From: an uncultured Pelagibacteraceae bacterium
GTDB lineage: Bacteria; Pseudomonadota; Alphaproteobacteria; Pelagibacterales; Pelagibacteraceae
Reading direction: 5' to 3'
DNA length: 64,000 bases
NCBI GenBank assembly: GCA_902580945.1
Contig: CACHML010000001.1
Location: forward strand, 1-64,000
Shown: in pieces, positions 51,420 to 64,000 of the stretch
Numbering within the stretch: the first letter of the stretch is position 1
How the letters are laid out: each line of letters begins with the position of its first letter
Translations under genes and position numbers: made by a program
Notes under the pieces: generated by a model
Seen by the model: the letters and a program-made list of their open reading frames with translations, nothing else
What the model was told of the DNA's origin: nothing
The model's database searches: none

Positions 51420-52148
51420 ATGAATTTTTCATTAGAAATTGGACCTCACACTGATCTTGATACTTTACCAAGTGTGAAAGATGTATATGTCACAATGCTA
51501 CCTGGAGGTGATTATAGGGAGACTGCTGACAAGTCTGGAGATTTGGTAAAAAAAGGTTTTAACCCAGTTCCTCATTTTCCAGCTAGATCAATTAATAGCG
51601 AAAGTGAATTAAAAGAGTATGTTTTAAGATGTAAAGATTTAGGTGTAAAACAAGTTCTTGTTATTGGAGGTAGTCGTGAACCAATTGGAAAATTTGATAG
51701 CTCCTATCAGATATTAGAAACAGGATATTTTGATGGGATTAAGATCGGAATTGCTGGACATCCAGAGGGGAGTCCTGATATATCCGATTCAGATTTAGAA
51801 AAAGCTATGATAGATAAAAAGCCTTATGCTGATTATATTGTTACTCAATGGTTACTTGATGCTCAGCCTATTGTAGATTTTATTTCTAAACAAACGATAC
51901 CAGTTCATGTTGGAATAACTGGGCCAATGAAAATTTCAAGCTTAATAAAGTTTGCAAATATTGTAGGGGCAAAAAATTCCATTAACTTTCTTAAATCTAA
52001 TTTTACTAAGGCATTAGATTTATTGAAACCTAAAGACCCTAATGATCTAATTGGGAAAGTTAAATCGCATACTGATTATTTTCACATTTATACATTCGGC
52101 GGCTTGAAGGAAACAAACAAGTGGTTGAAGGAGAATAACTATGTCTAA
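51420..52148 (+). CDS. Methylenetetrahydrofolate reductase-like protein (MetF fold, short)
   Basis: This 242-residue protein is shorter than MetF (about 290). It has the MetF-like barrel segments KQVLVIGGSREP, KIGIAGHPEGSPDI and DYIVTQWLLDAQPIVDF. It overlaps the DmdA-like gene by eight bases, so the pair is co-translated. Probable job: oxidising 5-methyl-THF made by the partner to methylene-THF, or the reverse. Cofactor use is unverified. Confidence 0.85.
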   Translation: MNFSLEIGPHTDLDTLPSVKDVYVTMLPGGDYRETADKSGDLVKKGFNPVPHFPARSINSESELKEYVLRCKDLGVKQVLVIGGSREPIGKFDSSYQILETGYFDGIKIGIAGHPEGSPDISDSDLEKAMIDKKPYADYIVTQWLLDAQPIVDFISKQTIPVHVGITGPMKISSLIKFANIVGAKNSINFLKSNFTKALDLLKPKDPNDLIGKVKSHTDYFHIYTFGGLKETNKWLKENNYV

Positions 52149-53499
52149 AGAATTTGACTATAGTAAGCTAAGACACGTAACATCAGTAGATCAATCTGAT
52201 AGAAAAGTGCCTTATAATTTAAGACAAAGCGGACCAACAAAAGTTGAAATGTTAATTTCAACACGTGTAAGAAAATCACCATACTGGCATTTATCAATGC
52301 AAGCTGGTTGTTGGAGAGCAACTGTATATAATCGTATTTACCATCCAAGAGGGTATGTAAAACCTGAAGATGGAGGTGCAATGGTTGAGTACGATGCAAT
52401 TGTTAATCATGTAACAATGTGGAATGTTGCAGTTGAAAGACAAATTAGAGTGAAGGGCCCAGATGCAGAAAAATTTGTAGACTATGTAATTACAAGAGAT
52501 GCTACAAAAATTTCTCCGATGAGAGCAAGATATGTAATTCTTTGTAATGCATATGGCGGCGTTTTAAATGATCCTATACTTTTAAGAATATCAAAAGACG
52601 AATTTTGGTTTAGTTTGTCTGATAGTGATATAGGTCTTTATTTACAGGGTGTAAACTCCGATGAAAGATTTAATGTAGAAATTGATGAAATAGATGTAAG
52701 TCCTGTTCAAATTCAAGGACCAAAATCTAAAGCGTTGATGAAAGATTTATGTGGAGATCAGGTTGATTTTGACAATATGCCTTTCTATGGTTTAGCTGAG
52801 GCTAAAGTTGGTGGAAGAAGTTGCGTAATATCACAATCAGGTTTTTCAGGAGAAGCAGGTTATGAAATATATTTAAGAGAATGCACTTTATACGCTGAAG
52901 ATATGTGGAATGCAGTTCTTGAAGCAGGTAAAAAACATAGCTTAATGGTAATTGCTCCAGCTCACCACAGAAGAATCCAAGCTGGCATTCTCTCTTGGGG
53001 GCAAGATATGGACAATCAACATAACCCATTCCAATGTAATTTAGGTTATCAAGTTTCATTATCAGGTAAAGGAGAGTGGAATAAGAAGGCAGATTATGTT
53101 GGAAAAAAAGCTCTTGAAAAAATGAAAGCTGATTTAAAAGCTGGACATAAACCTTATAAACTTCAATTGGTTGGACTAGAATTAGGTGGAAAGCCAATTG
53201 AGGAATACGCTCCTGATTTTTGGTTAATTTCAGATGAAGGTGGTGGAGAGCCAATTGGGTTTATTACTTCGCCATGGTATCACCCTGAAAAAAAACAAAA
53301 TATTGCAATGGGTTATGTGCCATTCGATGGAACTCTGAATGCTAATGGTTTTCCAAAAGGAAAAATAGGAACAAAATTTAAAGTTCATTTACCTGAAAAG
53401 TATTCAGAAACTCCAGGAAAACCAGTTGATGCTGTTGTTGTTGATATACCATTCAAAGAATCTTACAACGCAAACACCAGAGAAGTTGTAAAAGGATAA
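52141..53499 (+). CDS. DmdA/LigM-like tetrahydrofolate-dependent O-, S- or N-demethylase
   Basis: This 452-residue GcvT-family protein shows a DmdA-like core: HVTMWNVAVERQIRVKGPDA, SGFSGEAGYEIYL at residue 233 onward, and RRIQAGILSWGQDMDNQHNP. DmdA of SAR11, as I remember it, is about 369 residues with SGW where this has SGF (residues 233-235), and this one has an 80-residue extra stretch. Hence a relative with another methyl donor, such as a methoxylated aromatic (LigM) or a betaine, is as likely as DMSP. The MTHFR-like partner and ProXW fit THF-linked osmolyte demethylation. Confidence 0.85.
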   Translation: MSKEFDYSKLRHVTSVDQSDRKVPYNLRQSGPTKVEMLISTRVRKSPYWHLSMQAGCWRATVYNRIYHPRGYVKPEDGGAMVEYDAIVNHVTMWNVAVERQIRVKGPDAEKFVDYVITRDATKISPMRARYVILCNAYGGVLNDPILLRISKDEFWFSLSDSDIGLYLQGVNSDERFNVEIDEIDVSPVQIQGPKSKALMKDLCGDQVDFDNMPFYGLAEAKVGGRSCVISQSGFSGEAGYEIYLRECTLYAEDMWNAVLEAGKKHSLMVIAPAHHRRIQAGILSWGQDMDNQHNPFQCNLGYQVSLSGKGEWNKKADYVGKKALEKMKADLKAGHKPYKLQLVGLELGGKPIEEYAPDFWLISDEGGGEPIGFITSPWYHPEKKQNIAMGYVPFDGTLNANGFPKGKIGTKFKVHLPEKYSETPGKPVDAVVVDIPFKESYNANTREVVKG

Positions 53500-53500
53500 A

Positions 53501-53527
53501 CTTATGGGGAGTTTTCCTCCCCTTAAG
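53501..53527 (+). terminator. Stem-loop after the DmdA-like gene
   Basis: GGGGAG (53506-53511) pairs with CTCCCC (53517-53522) around loop TTTTC. With one mismatch the stem extends to CTTA and TAAG. It lies two bases after the stop. No T-run follows, so it may be a 3' end protector. Confidence 0.55.
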
Positions 53528-53533
53528 AAAATT

Positions 53534-54100
53534 ATGTCAGAGTTTTTAAGAATAATTTTTCAAATTATATCAATAAAAAAAGAGTTCTTTAAAAATAATA
53601 AAAATTTTGGAGAGGCTTCAATTTATTTTGCAATTTTAATAATTATAATTACTGGTCTCTTAAATTTAATTCCACAGAAATCATTATTTGAGGTTATTAA
53701 TCTAAATTACAATATAGGAATAATAAAAGGACCATCATTGAGAAATGTTGTTTTTTTCTCAGTTTTATTTTGGATTATAAAATCATTTTATATATATTTT
53801 GTTGGAGTAATTGTTTTTCCAAATAAAAAAACTAATTGTAATTTTAGAAAAATTTTAATTTTAATTGGATATGCTAATGCACCAATGATATTTAATTTTT
53901 TAATTTTTACTCCATCTTTATTATTTTTAGCAATTATTACTTACATTTGGTATAATATATCTTTAATAGTGGGTCTTAATATTATTTTAAATTACAATAA
54001 TATAATCAAATCTACGCTAGTTGTTCTCTCCCCAATAATAATTCTTTTAATTTATATTTTTTCAACCCAAGTCCAAATAACTCCAGGAATAATTAGTTAA
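53534..54100 (+). CDS. Yip1-like polytopic membrane protein
   Basis: From the ATG at 53534 this is a 188-residue protein with about five hydrophobic segments and a Yip1-like layout (IILIIIITGLLNLI-type helices, ILIGYANAPMIFNFLIF). The frame to 53504 begins inside the stem-loop and is unlikely. Function unknown. Its last codons overlap the convergent 53-residue gene by four bases. Confidence 0.72.
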   Translation: MSEFLRIIFQIISIKKEFFKNNKNFGEASIYFAILIIIITGLLNLIPQKSLFEVINLNYNIGIIKGPSLRNVVFFSVLFWIIKSFYIYFVGVIVFPNKKTNCNFRKILILIGYANAPMIFNFLIFTPSLLFLAIITYIWYNISLIVGLNIILNYNNIIKSTLVVLSPIIILLIYIFSTQVQITPGIIS

Positions 54101-54258
54101 ATTGGAAAAATGGTTTTTGATGTCTTACAAAATTTGCAAATTTTATAACCATTAAGTATTAAATTCTGAAAAACACTTTCGTGATTATCTAGGCACTCCT
54201 CACAAATATCATTTTTATCGTTCTCATCTTTATCTTCTTGATTTTGTTCTTTAATCAT
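54097..54258 (-). CDS. 53-residue putative zinc-ribbon mini-protein
   Basis: This short gene begins with ATG overlapping the DUF3726 stop (ATGATTAA), so it is translationally coupled. It has an acidic first half and two CxxC pairs: C19/C22 in ICEECLDN and C41/C44 in ICKFCKTS, spaced 19 residues, as in a small zinc ribbon. It ends on TAA at 54097-54099, four bases inside the convergent gene. No family recognised. The coupling and CxxC pattern are the evidence. Confidence 0.7.
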   Translation of the reverse strand: MIKEQNQEDKDENDKNDICEECLDNHESVFQNLILNGYKICKFCKTSKTIFPI

Positions 54259-54859
54259 TATCGGTTAATCCAGCTCCTGCCGTTCTTGCTTTTGATTCCT
54301 CACTTTCCTCAACATAAGTTTTAATAGAAAGTTTATGTATTTCTGTCCAATCATCCTCGGAGAAATTATTTTTATTATCTAAAAATTTAATATTTATTTT
54401 GTCTGATTTTTCTAAAATATCTCCACTTAAATAATTAGAATATATTGATTCATTAAAATTAAACAAAAACTCTTTATTATCCATTTTTAAGAATATTCTT
54501 TTACCAACAATCTCTGATGCCCTACTCAAAAAAGATAAAAATATGAGGGGAAAGGCTATTTTGTTAATTTCAATTTCATTAAATTTTAAAATTATAGGTG
54601 ACTGATCAAAAAAATTTAACCCACAAAGTATTGGGCAATAATATCCTTTTGCTGTATTTGAAGATGAAATTTCTCCAATATTTTCGAAGTTACTAATATT
54701 ATAAATTTTAAAGTATTGGTTAAGATTTTTAAGTCCTGGTAAACCAAACATTTCAAGTAATCTTATATTTTTTCCAACCTCCTCAGATATTCCCCATGAA
54801 AAACCTTTGGCCTTAGTTGCCCTTTTAATTGTAGTTTCTATTTCGCTATAACTTCTCAT
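54251..54859 (-). CDS. DUF3726 family protein
   Basis: This 202-residue protein carries DUF3726 signs: RSYSEIETTIKRATKAKGFS with WGISEEVGK at the start, and the end KTYVEESEESKARTAGAGLT followed by DND. Function of the family is unknown. It is six bases after the 550-residue gene and coupled to the mini-protein, forming a four-gene block with the M19-like gene. Confidence 0.85.
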   Translation of the reverse strand: MRSYSEIETTIKRATKAKGFSWGISEEVGKNIRLLEMFGLPGLKNLNQYFKIYNISNFENIGEISSSNTAKGYYCPILCGLNFFDQSPIILKFNEIEINKIAFPLIFLSFLSRASEIVGKRIFLKMDNKEFLFNFNESIYSNYLSGDILEKSDKINIKFLDNKNNFSEDDWTEIHKLSIKTYVEESEESKARTAGAGLTDND

Positions 54860-54865
54860 ACGGAA

Positions 54866-56518
54866 TTAATTATACATCCAATAATTATCAAAATTTGAGA
54901 GTTCAGACGGTAAAGGTGCTCCCTGAAACATGCAAATACGTAACCACTTGTCTGATCTAGGATCAAATTTTATTGCTCCAAAAAAAGACAGCTTAAGTCT
55001 TAACATATCAATAGGCATTAATTTAGAACCAATTGTATTATCTTGAATTTCTGCATAAGGACATTTTTCAGAAATAAATACTCTTCTTACTACATGTCTT
55101 AAATGATTATTATCCAATAAAAATTTTCCAATTTTGGAACTATTTTTTTTTGTGAACACTATTTCATAAAGCTTTTTGATATCTCTTGCAATTGCAAGTG
55201 GTTGTTCTAAATTTGATCCATCATCGATATATCTATCCCCTATTCTTGGCTCCTCTTTGTTTTTTGAAATAAACCAGAAATTTTTATTATTTTCTTCCTT
55301 ATTAAAATCAATTTTCAAAATTTCAGAGTAATTCTTTTCAATTATATTTCTTAAATCCTCGATAGTTCTTTCAACAGGAATATTAAAGTATTTTTCTTCA
55401 TTTGAACTCATTTTAGATACTAAAGGATCAACTATTTTATCATATGGCTCCATCATCATAGAAACGATATACTCAATACATTCATCATTTAAATTCTCCT
55501 CAGCCCACATATAAATATTATTAAATTGATAAGAATTTTCTAATTTAAACTCATCTTTCATAAATTTTATAAATTTTTTTAAATCAATTGTTAAATTTTT
55601 AATTTTTTCTCTTTGAAATTCACTCTCTGTATGCCAGCTAGTAATATTTTTAAGTGATTTAATTAAACACTGGTAAAAAATTTCTAAATCACTCTTAGAA
55701 ACTTTTTCTATTTCTCTTATTTTTTTTAAAACTGTTTCTCTAGCAATTATCCAGTTATTAAGTAAAGTGGGATGGTTTACTATAAATGGTGCCATGCCAA
55801 GTCCTGTAGAATTTCCTATTCCTAGAGTTCTGCTGATATTATCATCTAGTTCAACAGCGTTCTTCGGACTAATGCTTTTTGCGATATGATTAACTTGGTC
55901 AAATGTGAATTGTCTTACTAAATAGACCAACATCATTTCTAGTCTAAATGGCCCACAAATTTCATCCCTATTTTTAATCCTAAATCTATCAGCTAAACCA
56001 AATTTACCAGATCCATAGACTGCAGTAGTTCTATAAAGATAACCAACTTTAGATATAAATTCTTTATCTGGTTGTTGACCTTTTGATAAATTTTCAACTA
56101 CATGATTAAACAACCTGACAGATTTATTAGCTCTTGATAGGGTTAATTCTTTGTAAGATAGTCTTCCAACCTCTTGTTTAGGCACATTATTACTAAGTCT
56201 ATCAACATCTTCTTTTGTTGGAATTCCATCAAATAGAGTAAATGCAGCATCCCATCTAGTGGCAATAACTCTATCTGATCTTTCATCATCCTGTATTTCA
56301 TTGGCAAAACAAATTAAAGAGTAAGTTTTTTTTTCTTTAGTAAAAGAATAAATTGCTCTTCCAAATCCTTTGTCATTTAATTGAAATAAATCTCTACTAT
56401 ATCTCCAGTCTTTAAATTCTTTTAAGAAAGATCTTAGAAAGGAGAGTTTTGATTGATGAAAAGAGCCAAGTTTAGACAATTTCATCAGGAATTTAGGGTC
56501 TCTTAACTTAACTTCCAT
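54866..56518 (-). CDS. Uncharacterised 550-residue protein of the DUF3726 block
   Basis: I do not recognise a family in this 550-residue soluble protein. It lacks signal and membrane segments. Noteworthy parts are RDEICGPFRLEMMLVYLVRQ, NISRTLGIGNSTGLGMAPFI followed by VNHPTLLNNWIIARE (around residues 225-265), and RHVVRRVFISEKCPYAEIQD near the C-terminus. The Gly-rich loop could bind a nucleotide or phosphate. Its ATG overlaps the M19-like stop, so it is made together with it. Confidence 0.8.
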   Translation of the reverse strand: MEVKLRDPKFLMKLSKLGSFHQSKLSFLRSFLKEFKDWRYSRDLFQLNDKGFGRAIYSFTKEKKTYSLICFANEIQDDERSDRVIATRWDAAFTLFDGIPTKEDVDRLSNNVPKQEVGRLSYKELTLSRANKSVRLFNHVVENLSKGQQPDKEFISKVGYLYRTTAVYGSGKFGLADRFRIKNRDEICGPFRLEMMLVYLVRQFTFDQVNHIAKSISPKNAVELDDNISRTLGIGNSTGLGMAPFIVNHPTLLNNWIIARETVLKKIREIEKVSKSDLEIFYQCLIKSLKNITSWHTESEFQREKIKNLTIDLKKFIKFMKDEFKLENSYQFNNIYMWAEENLNDECIEYIVSMMMEPYDKIVDPLVSKMSSNEEKYFNIPVERTIEDLRNIIEKNYSEILKIDFNKEENNKNFWFISKNKEEPRIGDRYIDDGSNLEQPLAIARDIKKLYEIVFTKKNSSKIGKFLLDNNHLRHVVRRVFISEKCPYAEIQDNTIGSKLMPIDMLRLKLSFFGAIKFDPRSDKWLRICMFQGAPLPSELSNFDNYWMYN

Positions 56519-57486
56519 TAATTAATTCCTTTATAAAAATTAAACCAATTATTTCCTAAAATATCATTTACTTCATTTTTATTAAAACCAATTTTTTTTA
56601 ATCCTTTATCTAAATTACTAAACCCTCTGGCATCAATAAACCACTCAGGTTGATCAGGAAATTCTGGTTTACTTTTGCTCCCTTCACCATAATTTTTTGT
56701 TTTACTCCACGTTCCATTTCTCATCCACTCGACGATACTATTTGGTTGGTTCAAACAAAGATCGGAGCCAATGCCTATATTTTTTACTCCCATTATATCA
56801 ACAGTTTTTGCTACCATTTCACAAAAACTATCTAATTTACAATCTGTTCCATTTTTTAGATGATGCGCATACAAAGAAAGCCCTAGCATTCCTCCACTGT
56901 TTGATAAATGTTTTAAAAGTTTTTCAGATTTATTTCTTAAAGCACTATGCCAAAAAGACGGATTAGCATGAGTAATTGCAATTGGTTTTTCGCTAATATC
57001 TATAGCATCTAAAGTACTTTTTTCACCTGAATGCGACATATCAATTACTATTCCAATTCGATTCATTTCTTTTATAGCTTCTCTTCCAAAATTTGTTACA
57101 CCAGAGTCGTTTTTTTCATAACATCCTGTAGCTAAAAGAGATTGGTTATTGTAAGTAAGTTGCATAAATCTACATCCATGATGATGAACTTTTTCAATTA
57201 AGTTAATATCATCCTCAATTGGAGAACAGTTTTGAAAACCAAAAAATATTGCAGTTTTATTTTCTGACTTAGCCTTTATAATATCCTCAAAAGTTTTTCC
57301 CAAAAATATTAGATCTGAATTTTCGCTAAGTAAGTTATCCCATTCTTTCAATTTAATTAAAAATTCATCATAGTCTTCATGATATACTACTGTTGCATGT
57401 ACTGCGCTTAATCCTGCGTCCCTGTTAATTTTAAAAATATCTCTAGACCAGTTGCAATATTGAAGATTATCAATTCGATAATTCAT
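56518..57486 (-). CDS. Membrane-dipeptidase-like (M19) protein with altered metal site
   Basis: This 322-residue protein has the M19 barrel (TNFGREAIKEMNRIG, IVIDMSHSGEKST, ITHANPSFWHSALRNKSEKL). His152 and His173 match the two later zinc His, but the usual N-terminal HxD is replaced by QYCNWSRD, and the bridging Glu by Gln85 (FFGFQNCSP). It has no signal peptide. Ordinary dipeptidase activity is therefore doubtful. First gene of the block, divergent from purE. Confidence 0.82.
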   Translation of the reverse strand: MNYRIDNLQYCNWSRDIFKINRDAGLSAVHATVVYHEDYDEFLIKLKEWDNLLSENSDLIFLGKTFEDIIKAKSENKTAIFFGFQNCSPIEDDINLIEKVHHHGCRFMQLTYNNQSLLATGCYEKNDSGVTNFGREAIKEMNRIGIVIDMSHSGEKSTLDAIDISEKPIAITHANPSFWHSALRNKSEKLLKHLSNSGGMLGLSLYAHHLKNGTDCKLDSFCEMVAKTVDIMGVKNIGIGSDLCLNQPNSIVEWMRNGTWSKTKNYGEGSKSKPEFPDQPEWFIDARGFSNLDKGLKKIGFNKNEVNDILGNNWFNFYKGIN

Positions 57487-62309: not shown

Positions 62310-62897
62310 CTAAATACATTTATAGCCATATTCCAGTGAAGCATCAGTTATTGAGTGGTACATAGATTCCCCAAAACTACGAAGTGAAAAAATTCTAGCT
62401 TTTTCAGGATTATCTTCAACCATATCAACTAAAAAAGATATTCCGTTATATGATGAGTTGATGCACATATTTTTACTAAATATATTGAAATTAAACGGAC
62501 AACCTTTTTTTAAAACCTCTTTAACATTAGGTCCTTCTATTTCTATAATTGCTTTTGAGTGTGATAGATCTGTAACAGCAAAGTCGCTATCATTAAAATT
62601 TTTCAAAATTTCACTAAAAAGTTCTTTTTTTTTGGAAACAACAAGCCAATTGTTTGGTGAATTCCACAATATTCTTAAATTTTCATTTGCGACAACTTTT
62701 TGTGCTTCATTAAAAAATTGCAAATTATTAAGTTTTATATCATTTATTTTAATTGAAGAATTTTTGTACTGAACTATTTGAACAATTAATAAATTTTTTA
62801 ACTCAGAAATTTTCAATAATTCATTTTCAGTTTTATTTTCAAAATTTCCATAAGAGCCCTCTGAATGAATGTTCTGCAAAGGTGATAACATCGTCAT
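62310..62897 (-). CDS. soxG: Sarcosine oxidase gamma subunit
   Basis: This 195-residue protein matches the gamma subunit of heterotetrameric sarcosine oxidase, e.g. NLRILWNSPNNWLVV, DSDFAVTDLSHSKAIIEIEG and KGCPFNFNIF. It overlaps soxA by four bases (ATGA). The oxidase demethylates sarcosine to glycine, giving methylene-THF and hydrogen peroxide. Confidence 0.88.
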   Translation of the reverse strand: MTMLSPLQNIHSEGSYGNFENKTENELLKISELKNLLIVQIVQYKNSSIKINDIKLNNLQFFNEAQKVVANENLRILWNSPNNWLVVSKKKELFSEILKNFNDSDFAVTDLSHSKAIIEIEGPNVKEVLKKGCPFNFNIFSKNMCINSSYNGISFLVDMVEDNPEKARIFSLRSFGESMYHSITDASLEYGYKCI

Positions 62898-64000
62898 GAT
62901 CTAACTCTCTTTCCTTCAGGATCTACATAATGAGAAGAGACAATCTCTACAGGTATCGTTTTATTTTTTAAAGGTGACATAGCAAAGAGTTTTTGTCCTA
63001 TCATATTTTTACCATCTTTAATTATTGCTAAAGAAAATGGGTTATCATATTCAACACTCCAACATGAGGCCGAAACATGACCTAATTTTGGGTTAGGTAA
63101 TTTTGCTTTTGGATCTTTTACTATGTAAGATCCCTCAGGTATACTTGTAGTTTTATCAATTGGAACTACGCCAACTAATTTTTCTCTATCCGTAGATGTA
63201 AAGGCAGATCTGTTTAAAGATCTTTTGCCTATAAAATCTTTTTTCTTACTAACTAGCCCTTCTAAAGATGCATCGTAAGGGATTGTTCTTCCATCTAATT
63301 CAGATCCTGCAACATGGCCCATTTCTATTCTTAAAGTTGATAAAGCTTCAGTTCCATATGGTTGTATTTGAAATTCTTTTCCAACTTCCATGATTTTTTC
63401 CCACATGAAATATCCGTTATCAGATTCAACGTTAATCTCATATGCTAACTCACCAGAAAACGAAATTCTGTAAATTTTTGCAGGAACTCCAAATAAATCA
63501 GCCTCTTTATAACCCATAAATGGCAAACCTTCGTTTGAAACATCTAAATTAGGGAATAATTTCATTAATAATTTTCTAGAATTAGGTCCTGCGATTGCTG
63601 CGCCTGCCCATTGCTCTGTGGTTGATACAACGTTTACATTTAATTCTGGCCACACTAGTTGTAAATAATATTCTAAATGAGATAGAACATTTGCTGCTTG
63701 AGCTGTTGTAGTTGTCATGTGATAATGATTTTCGGAAATCCTTGTTGTTGTTCCATCATCCATTACAATTCCATCTTCTCTTAACATTACACCGTATCTT
63801 GCTTTACCTACTGGAAGTTTAAGCCAAGCGTTAGTATAAACTCTATTTAAAAATTCTGCTGCATCTGGTCCTTTAACATCTATTTTACCTAATGTTGTAA
63901 CATCACATACGCCTACATTTTGTCTTACATTCTTTGCCTCTCTTTTTGATGCTTCAAATAACCCTTCATTTCCTTGCTTGTAATATCTTGGTCTTAACCA
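62894..64000 (-). CDS. soxA: Sarcosine oxidase alpha subunit, 5' part cut by window edge
   Basis: The minus-strand frame stays open to base 64000, so the N-terminal part lies outside. The visible portion reads FLNRVYTNAWLKLPVGKARY, then GIVMDDGTTTRISENHYHMT and IRISFSGELAYEI-type GcvT segments, typical of SoxA's C-terminal half. The ATG at 63787 is internal. It transfers the sarcosine methyl to THF. soxB and soxD should lie further upstream. Confidence 0.92.
   Translation of the reverse strand, partial: WLRPRYYKQGNEGLFEASKREAKNVRQNVGVCDVTTLGKIDVKGPDAAEFLNRVYTNAWLKLPVGKARYGVMLREDGIVMDDGTTTRISENHYHMTTTTAQAANVLSHLEYYLQLVWPELNVNVVSTTEQWAGAAIAGPNSRKLLMKLFPNLDVSNEGLPFMGYKEADLFGVPAKIYRISFSGELAYEINVESDNGYFMWEKIMEVGKEFQIQPYGTEALSTLRIEMGHVAGSELDGRTIPYDASLEGLVSKKKDFIGKRSLNRSAFTSTDREKLVGVVPIDKTTSIPEGSYIVKDPKAKLPNPKLGHVSASCWSVEYDNPFSLAIIKDGKNMIGQKLFAMSPLKNKTIPVEIVSSHYVDPEGKRVRS

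Follow-up and report, generated by a model that had tools for sequence, protein, structure and literature searches.

We investigated a block of four genes on the minus strand of contig CACHML010000001.1, from an uncultured Pelagibacteraceae bacterium with a genome of 1.23 Mb. The window, i.e. the whole stretch of DNA that was analysed, comprises positions 1-64000 of this contig (64,000 nucleotides), and the block encodes an M19-like protein, a protein of 550 residues (P550), a DUF3726 protein and a CxxC mini-protein. On re-reading, the four genes, their coordinates and the junctions given by the initial annotation all hold: the M19-like and P550 genes share a one-base overlap (TAATG), a six-base gap separates P550 from DUF3726, and DUF3726 overlaps the mini-protein gene by eight bases (ATGATTAA). 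The features of the block are:

56518-57486, minus strand: M19-like protein, 322 residues, of a divergent M19 subclass (Pfam Peptidase_M19, alignment).
54866-56518, minus strand: P550, 550 residues, conserved, candidate catalytic subunit, with no Pfam, NCBIfam or convincing PDB sequence match and no recognised fold.
54251-54859, minus strand: DUF3726 protein, 202 residues, with a predicted Ldh2-like fold lacking the domain that binds nicotinamide adenine dinucleotide (NAD) and with Phe38 at the place of the SHG histidine (Pfam, model, profile).
54254-54277, minus strand: C-terminal tail of DUF3726, GAGLTDND (last eight residues), invariant in form in SAR11, predicted disordered.
54097-54258, minus strand: mini-protein, 53 residues, resembling a zinc ribbon by its motif of two CxxC pairs, both invariant; observed in the window's genus alone.

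A Pfam search of the window proteins gave 228 bits for Peptidase_M19, over residues 22-317, and 75 bits for DUF3726, while P550 had no match in Pfam or NCBIfam. Measured against 10 relatives, the median ratio of nonsynonymous to synonymous polymorphism (pN/pS) is 0.17 for M19, 0.14 for P550, 0.13 for DUF3726 and 0.43 for the mini-protein, and synonymous change is in excess in all four genes. A defence-system reading was dropped, PADLOC giving only a 12-bit match (E 0.022) for the mini-protein and none for the other three.

The M19-like, P550 and DUF3726 genes are closely linked. Among Pelagibacterales loci chosen via P550 (n = 35 including the window and 34 others; 22 from the window's genus, window included, and 13 from a sister family), the three are adjacent in 35/35, contig ends cutting DUF3726 in L028 and L032 (L-numbers denote loci and G-numbers genomes of the samples compared). 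The best 80 of at least 587 loci confirmed in a named collection, also chosen via P550 and all labelled Pelagibacteraceae, Pelagibacterales or Candidatus Pelagibacter (SAR11), carry M19 in 80/80, DUF3726 in 79/80 and the mini-protein in 75/80. In a class sample of 385 genomes, DUF3726 occurs in 43; P550 adjoins it in 30/30 loci first read from these positive genomes (window included), and in 34 wider loci chosen via DUF3726, P550 stands beside DUF3726 in every one and M19 lies at most 4 kb away in 31. M19 is absent within 4 kb in L076, L081 and L084, and its match is weak in L093 and on the opposite strand in L086; the L076 genome encodes an intermediate-type M19 protein on a separate contig (L254). 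P550 was found in 29 of the 398 genomes of a phylum sample, where 29 of 30 loci chosen via P550 (window included) have DUF3726 adjoining it, in some cases at a weak score, and 14 have M19 within the short flank that was read. Plasmid records gave 168 further P550 matches, including Vibrio, Variovorax, Caballeronia and a haloarchaeon, and 16 pattern matches in viral contigs included no P550 relative. Within a set of 61 incomplete genomes (the window's and its relatives), P550 is present in 40, and in 12 of the 19 most complete. These counts rule out a chance adjacency of the three genes. The initial annotation had proposed one conserved unit, and the co-occurrence check agrees with it as regards M19, P550 and DUF3726, which are not scattered separately in other genomes.

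The mini-protein, which had been placed in the same unit, does not belong to it. It is present in 19/22 loci of the window's genus (window included), in 0/13 sister-family loci (L028 and L032 end before its place) and in 1/34 class loci, the latter being from the window's genus, and its only match in NCBIfam and Pfam is below the cut-off. It was therefore dropped as a core member and is better described as a genus-level addition. The mini-protein gene and the adjacent Yip1-domain gene (together 53504-54258) encode proteins 60% and 34% identical, respectively, to those of the nearest relative, L002, and the flanking GcvT-like, DUF3726, P550 and M19 proteins are 93-97% identical to those of L002. 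By sequence, the two look like divergent alleles, as in a local allele replacement.

The M19-like protein was aligned, anchored on Asp6, with 29 M19 proteins of the class sample, in the columns which we take to be the M19 metal ligands. In the window protein the HxD motif is replaced by Leu8-x-Tyr10 and the bridging Glu by Gln85, while His152, His173, Arg184 and Asp242 are kept, as they are in 29/29 aligned proteins. Since HxD and the bridging Glu are both lost, this is not an ordinary two-metal dipeptidase. Among the 29 proteins, H and D of the motif are both found in 11 and H alone in 5 more; the bridging column holds Glu in 16 and Gln in 13. Of these 13 Gln-type proteins, 11 have Leu at the place of the first His, 6 of them as Leu-x-Tyr. 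The Gln and Leu changes, common to 13/29 and 11/13 proteins, thus mark a common M19 subclass and not the oddity of a single gene. The nearest solved relative, the amidohydrolase PDB 2i5g, shows the identical loss of HxD and Glu in the alignment; presumably 2i5g is the protein of the P. aeruginosa dgc cluster, and we assume that the pepD of dgcAB operons is of the same type. The initial annotation had reported an M19 protein without HxD and Glu and with the two later His, and had called it dead or re-purposed. The loss is real, although the residues it quoted were slightly off; the second statement stands insofar as the protein is not an ordinary two-metal dipeptidase, and is modified by the finding that the change is common to an M19 subclass including a solved structure.

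DUF3726, previously listed as a protein of no known function, can now be recognised as a reduced Ldh2-like protein by fold and profile match. Its AlphaFold model (predicted local distance difference test, pLDDT, 88.5; predicted template modelling score, pTM, 0.79) gave in Foldseek 16 top rows that are all Ldh2-type dehydrogenases, with E values of only 0.02-0.18. With VIA, the 15 entries listed at Z 8.7-10.6 are again all Ldh2-type, with root-mean-square deviations (rmsd) of 3.4-8.2, often 5-8, and the next entry is at Z 4.2, although by the tool's own warning models that have no relatives often reach a best Z of 7-8; examples are 3uoe (Z 10.6, rmsd 6.5 over 178 residues) and 4fju (Z 9.4, rmsd 3.4 over 156). 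We take all these entries to be one family, the type-2 malate-lactate dehydrogenases, including delta1-piperideine-2-carboxylate reductase. A sequence-profile search of the PDB with DUF3726 gave no match. An independent profile comparison of DUF3726 with Ldh proteins, the majority from genes close to DUF3726 in other bacteria, gave P 3.3e-5, whereas the best of 23 control families reached 0.061 (first run: P 1.9e-4, with two controls at 0.56 and 0.19); the hhalign probability was 72% (48% in the first run), for a match limited to the N-terminal 66 columns.

The 178 aligned residues of the model fall within residues 2-297 of the 3uoe chain, and about 120 residues of that chain are absent, which from their place would be the central NAD domain. 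The length of DUF3726, about 200 residues and some 130 shorter than Ldh (about 332), fits such a loss. The His of the SHG motif is catalytic in the Ldh2 family; its column holds Phe38 in the window protein, and the His is replaced in 19/21 class sequences, being found in L069 and L074. An Ldh2-like identity of DUF3726, with the NAD domain missing, is well supported by prediction.

The C-terminus of DUF3726 reads AGAGLxDND in 79/79 SAR11 sequences from the best 80 named loci. In 21 diverse class sequences (window included), 8 end in AGAGLxDND and 14 in DND, and GAG occurs within the last 12 residues of all 21. Residues 196-202 are predicted to be disordered, and the tail looks, in the model, like an arm that orders on a partner. 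It is not universal, the DND end being missing in the Vibrio, Variovorax, S. meliloti and Natrinema neighbours of P550. A search of one literature collection for DUF3726 found no papers.

The initial annotation was right to leave the 550-residue protein unrecognised. Besides its lack of a Pfam or NCBIfam family, the sequence-profile search of the PDB returned a single match at E 0.75, and its predicted model (pLDDT 75, pTM 0.80; of moderate quality) found nothing in the PDB at E <=0.001 with Foldseek and a best Z of 4.6 with VIA, with no row outstanding; such a missing match does not prove a new fold. Across 26 diverse sequences (the window's and 25 at 38-65% identity to it), P550 has 80 invariant residues, many of them charged or polar. 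The least confident segments of the model include several of its most conserved loops, as if these needed a partner or a cofactor. Four genomes of the phylum sample (G214, G312, G603 and G732), all of family f24, carry two copies of P550 each.

In part of the other bacteria, the trio is linked to or co-occurs with an aldehyde dehydrogenase (ALDH), a full-length Ldh-family reductase, a LysR regulator and betaine-type transporters. The order in Aminobacter is LysR (divergent), ALDH, M19, P550, DUF3726 and Ldh, followed by a glycine-betaine-type ATP-binding cassette (ABC) transporter. Shinella has LysR, ALDH, M19 and P550 in the same order, with a DUF3726 match behind and Ldh more distant on the other strand. 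Phaeobacter porticola and Ruegeria sp. TM1040 contain the six-gene set with a BCCT transporter inserted between M19 and P550, and with a helix-turn-helix regulator and sarcosine-oxidase-family genes directly upstream of LysR; the P. inhibens locus is like that of P. porticola, except that Ldh is not listed in its incomplete annotation. The P550, DUF3726 and M19 genes are PGA1_RS18830, PGA1_RS18825 and PGA1_RS18840 in P. inhibens DSM 17395, and TM1040_RS02335, RS02340 and RS02325 in Ruegeria TM1040. A Vibrio plasmid has the order ALDH (58%)-M19-BCCT-P550. In the 34 class loci, ALDH (at least 50% identity) is close by in 11 and Ldh (at least 46%) in 12. When block-type ALDH and Ldh were searched genome-wide at E cuts of 1e-170 and 1e-80, which we set ourselves, ALDH was found in 19/385 genomes, 14 of them DUF3726-positive, and Ldh in 24/385, 19 of them positive, compared with 43/385 positive genomes overall. 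This co-occurrence is not independent of the linkage counts, as much of it reflects the same adjacency.

More divergent trios occur in L182 (S. meliloti pSymB) and L186 (a Variovorax plasmid), in the order P550, DUF3726-like, M19, with other transporters and no DND tail. Their P550 proteins are 28-31% identical to the Phaeobacter query, and the DUF3726 position of L182 holds an open reading frame beyond the reach of the profile. These trios possibly act on another substrate. In L187, a plasmid of the haloarchaeon Natrinema, P550 and a DUF3726-like protein are found with a BCCT transporter and an aldehyde dehydrogenase, and M19 has no match in the 20 kb examined.

Additionally, the block lies close to an operon of the sarcosine-oxidase/N-methylglutamate-dehydrogenase (sox/mgd) type in the window contig and in some others. 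One part of this linked context, outside the block, is within the window:

62310-64000, minus strand: soxG-like gene and 3' part of a soxA-like gene (names by sequence reading).

The operon runs beyond the window to contig position 67416, and soxG-, soxA- and soxB-like, formate-tetrahydrofolate-ligase-like and trimethylamine-monooxygenase-like genes are all found within 25 kb, the genes on this stretch and in L026 being named by sequence reading, without family search. At a distance of about 9 kb from the block, the soxB-like gene shares 80% identity with the one beside the block of L026. In that SAR11 sister-family locus, a soxBDAG-like operon (L026:9485-14595) directly adjoins the block. Genes of this type are found close to the block on the window contig as well as in L026 and in roseobacters, mgd being indistinguishable here from sarcosine oxidase. 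On the other side of the block, positions 51420-53499 of the window encode a metF-like protein and then a GcvT/DmdA-like aminomethyltransferase (238 bits; DmdA cut-off 410). This pair perhaps corresponds, as putative orthologs, to the SAR11_1264/SAR11_1265 pair, whose substrate is given as unknown in the available part of PMC3160333.

On balance, we favour an interpretation in which M19-like, P550 and DUF3726 form the conserved core of a pathway for the catabolism of an N-methylated, betaine-like alkaloid, most likely homarine (N-methylpicolinate), which is a nitrogen-rich compound of algae. The association of the genes is an observation; the substrate and the chemistry we infer from gene content and carbon counting. 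Ferrer-Gonzalez et al. 2026 (Nat Microbiol) have reportedly described a homarine operon, homABCDER, in SAR11 and Rhodobacterales, which leads to N-methylglutamate and glutamate. In the pathway considered here, P550, as the catalytic subunit, would open or dearomatise the pyridinium ring. DUF3726 would bind P550 as an obligate partner and, in SAR11 and many further Alphaproteobacteria, would perhaps insert its GAG...DND tail into the active site. The M19-like protein, with half of its metal site kept, may hydrolyse a C-N (possibly N-formyl) intermediate or act as a scaffold. The aldehyde dehydrogenase and Ldh would finish the route to N-methylglutamate, and Mgd would then convert this to glutamate, with a one-carbon unit passed to tetrahydrofolate. 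The block of the window's genus is reduced to the core and the CxxC mini-protein, and distant paralogues would be needed for the remaining steps. According to an excerpt of PMC13390433, Mgd (N-methylglutamate dehydrogenase) is reported to take part in homarine catabolism, and the AraC-type regulator gene tmaR lies next to mgdABCD in R. pomeroyi; a rapid uptake of homarine by the same species is described in the accessible part of PMC12817926.

Several observations weigh against this interpretation. ALDH or Ldh is close by in only 18/34 class loci, and 17/43 DUF3726-positive genomes have neither block-type enzyme at the cuts used. No LysR gene adjoins the window block, and the window genome has no close block-type ALDH or Ldh, its best proteins being 38% and 36% identical to the L026 versions; both enzymes are absent, at the same E cuts, from it and from two other same-genus genomes of the class sample. 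The other neighbours of the divergent S. meliloti and Variovorax trios indicate that the substrate may vary. The soxB-like gene is found in 20/40 P550-positive genomes (18/23 in the window's genus and 2/17 in the sister family) and in 7/21 P550-negative ones, so that its tie to P550 is loose; as a strict partner of P550 it was not upheld across the 61 relatives. Finally, SAR11 has two sox operons and the available text of PMC3160333 leaves unclear which is N-methylglutamate dehydrogenase.

The best-surviving alternative is a catabolic block of the same kind for another quaternary or N-methylated substrate (e.g. trigonelline, stachydrine/N-methylproline or another betaine), homarine not being the SAR11 substrate, which we consider plausible but rather unlikely. 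It would agree with neighbours of a general betaine type (BCCT transporters, ABC transporters for glycine betaine, genes for Rieske and flavin adenine dinucleotide-dependent oxidoreductases), with the divergent trios in other contexts and the two P550 copies in genomes of one family, and with the position of the window block beside an OpuAC-type betaine transporter and the GcvT-like aminomethyltransferase of unknown substrate. However, in its set of genes and in the sox/mgd-type genes close by, the block resembles the reported homarine operon more than any betaine pathway that we know of.

We consider it improbable that the M19-like protein is itself a functional hydrolase that uses a one-metal or altered site on N-methylated intermediates, in the way of its relative from the dgcAB operons for dimethylglycine, with P550 and DUF3726 as accessory proteins. 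The substitutions shared with 2i5g and the four residues kept in all aligned M19 proteins speak for such a role, as does the predicted dipeptidase gene pepD that, with a hypothetical gene, precedes dgcAB in Vibrio natriegens and has the same place in P. aeruginosa (PMC12093977, available in part). The portion of PMC3691474 at hand does not mention a dipeptidase, and a search of the same literature collection for PA5396/PA5397 found no papers. Against this alternative, P550 and DUF3726 are the more constant pair, 3/34 class loci having both without a nearby M19. A non-catalytic pseudoenzyme complex with a regulatory, chaperone or storage role would account for the residues or the domain that, compared with the parent enzyme families, are missing from two of the three proteins, but is very improbable given the 80 invariant residues of P550, many of them charged or polar, and the linkage of the block to catabolic enzymes and transporters.

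Going further, we would only tentatively propose a new class of enzymes that open pyridinium rings, in which P550 is the catalytic subunit and two former enzymes are obligate subunits. One of these would be a Ldh2-fold protein without NAD domain, supplying the GAG...DND tail in SAR11 and many further Alphaproteobacteria, and the other an M19-fold protein that retains half of its metal site; the variants found in roseobacters, in rhizobia, in Vibrio and Variovorax and in haloarchaea might then handle a range of N-methylated aromatics. As for the suggestion of the initial annotation that the block is an undescribed system, P550 indeed has no recognised family or fold, but the system may have been described, its fuller form resembling the homarine operon reported in 2026. 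The block is real and strongly conserved, and in SAR11 it probably represents the core of a pathway of which a more complete form was recently published; to this we add the fold assignment of DUF3726, the mapping of the M19 subclass and the reduced form in SAR11. One open-ocean study ranked homarine with the particulate metabolites of highest abundance (PMC8269247), and an author correction, as far as its available text goes, states that homarine values had been overstated owing to an impure standard (PMC10308880). If the homarine interpretation is true, knowing which genes serve to consume such a compound would connect a common molecule with a very common type of cell. A NAD-domain-less Ldh2-like protein constantly paired with a protein of unknown fold is also a concrete, testable target for an unexplained reaction.

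In comparison with known systems, the window M19 resembles the M19 membrane dipeptidases (PF01244) in its Pfam match, both later His, the Arg and the last Asp, and differs from them in HxD and the bridging Glu, which are replaced. With the pepD-type M19 proteins of dgcAB operons it has the loss of these ligands in common, as seen for 2i5g, whereas its partners are P550 and DUF3726 instead of dgcAB. DUF3726 is like the Ldh2 dehydrogenases in the fold of its predicted model and unlike them in its shorter length, the missing NAD domain and, mostly, the missing SHG His. The homABCDER operon, reportedly of five structural genes and a regulator, fits by number the ALDH, M19-like, P550, DUF3726, Ldh and LysR genes of Aminobacter and Ruegeria TM1040, and its reported link to N-methylglutamate dehydrogenase may also hold for the fuller loci. 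Of such a set, no more than three genes stay together in the window's genus, which adds the CxxC mini-protein.

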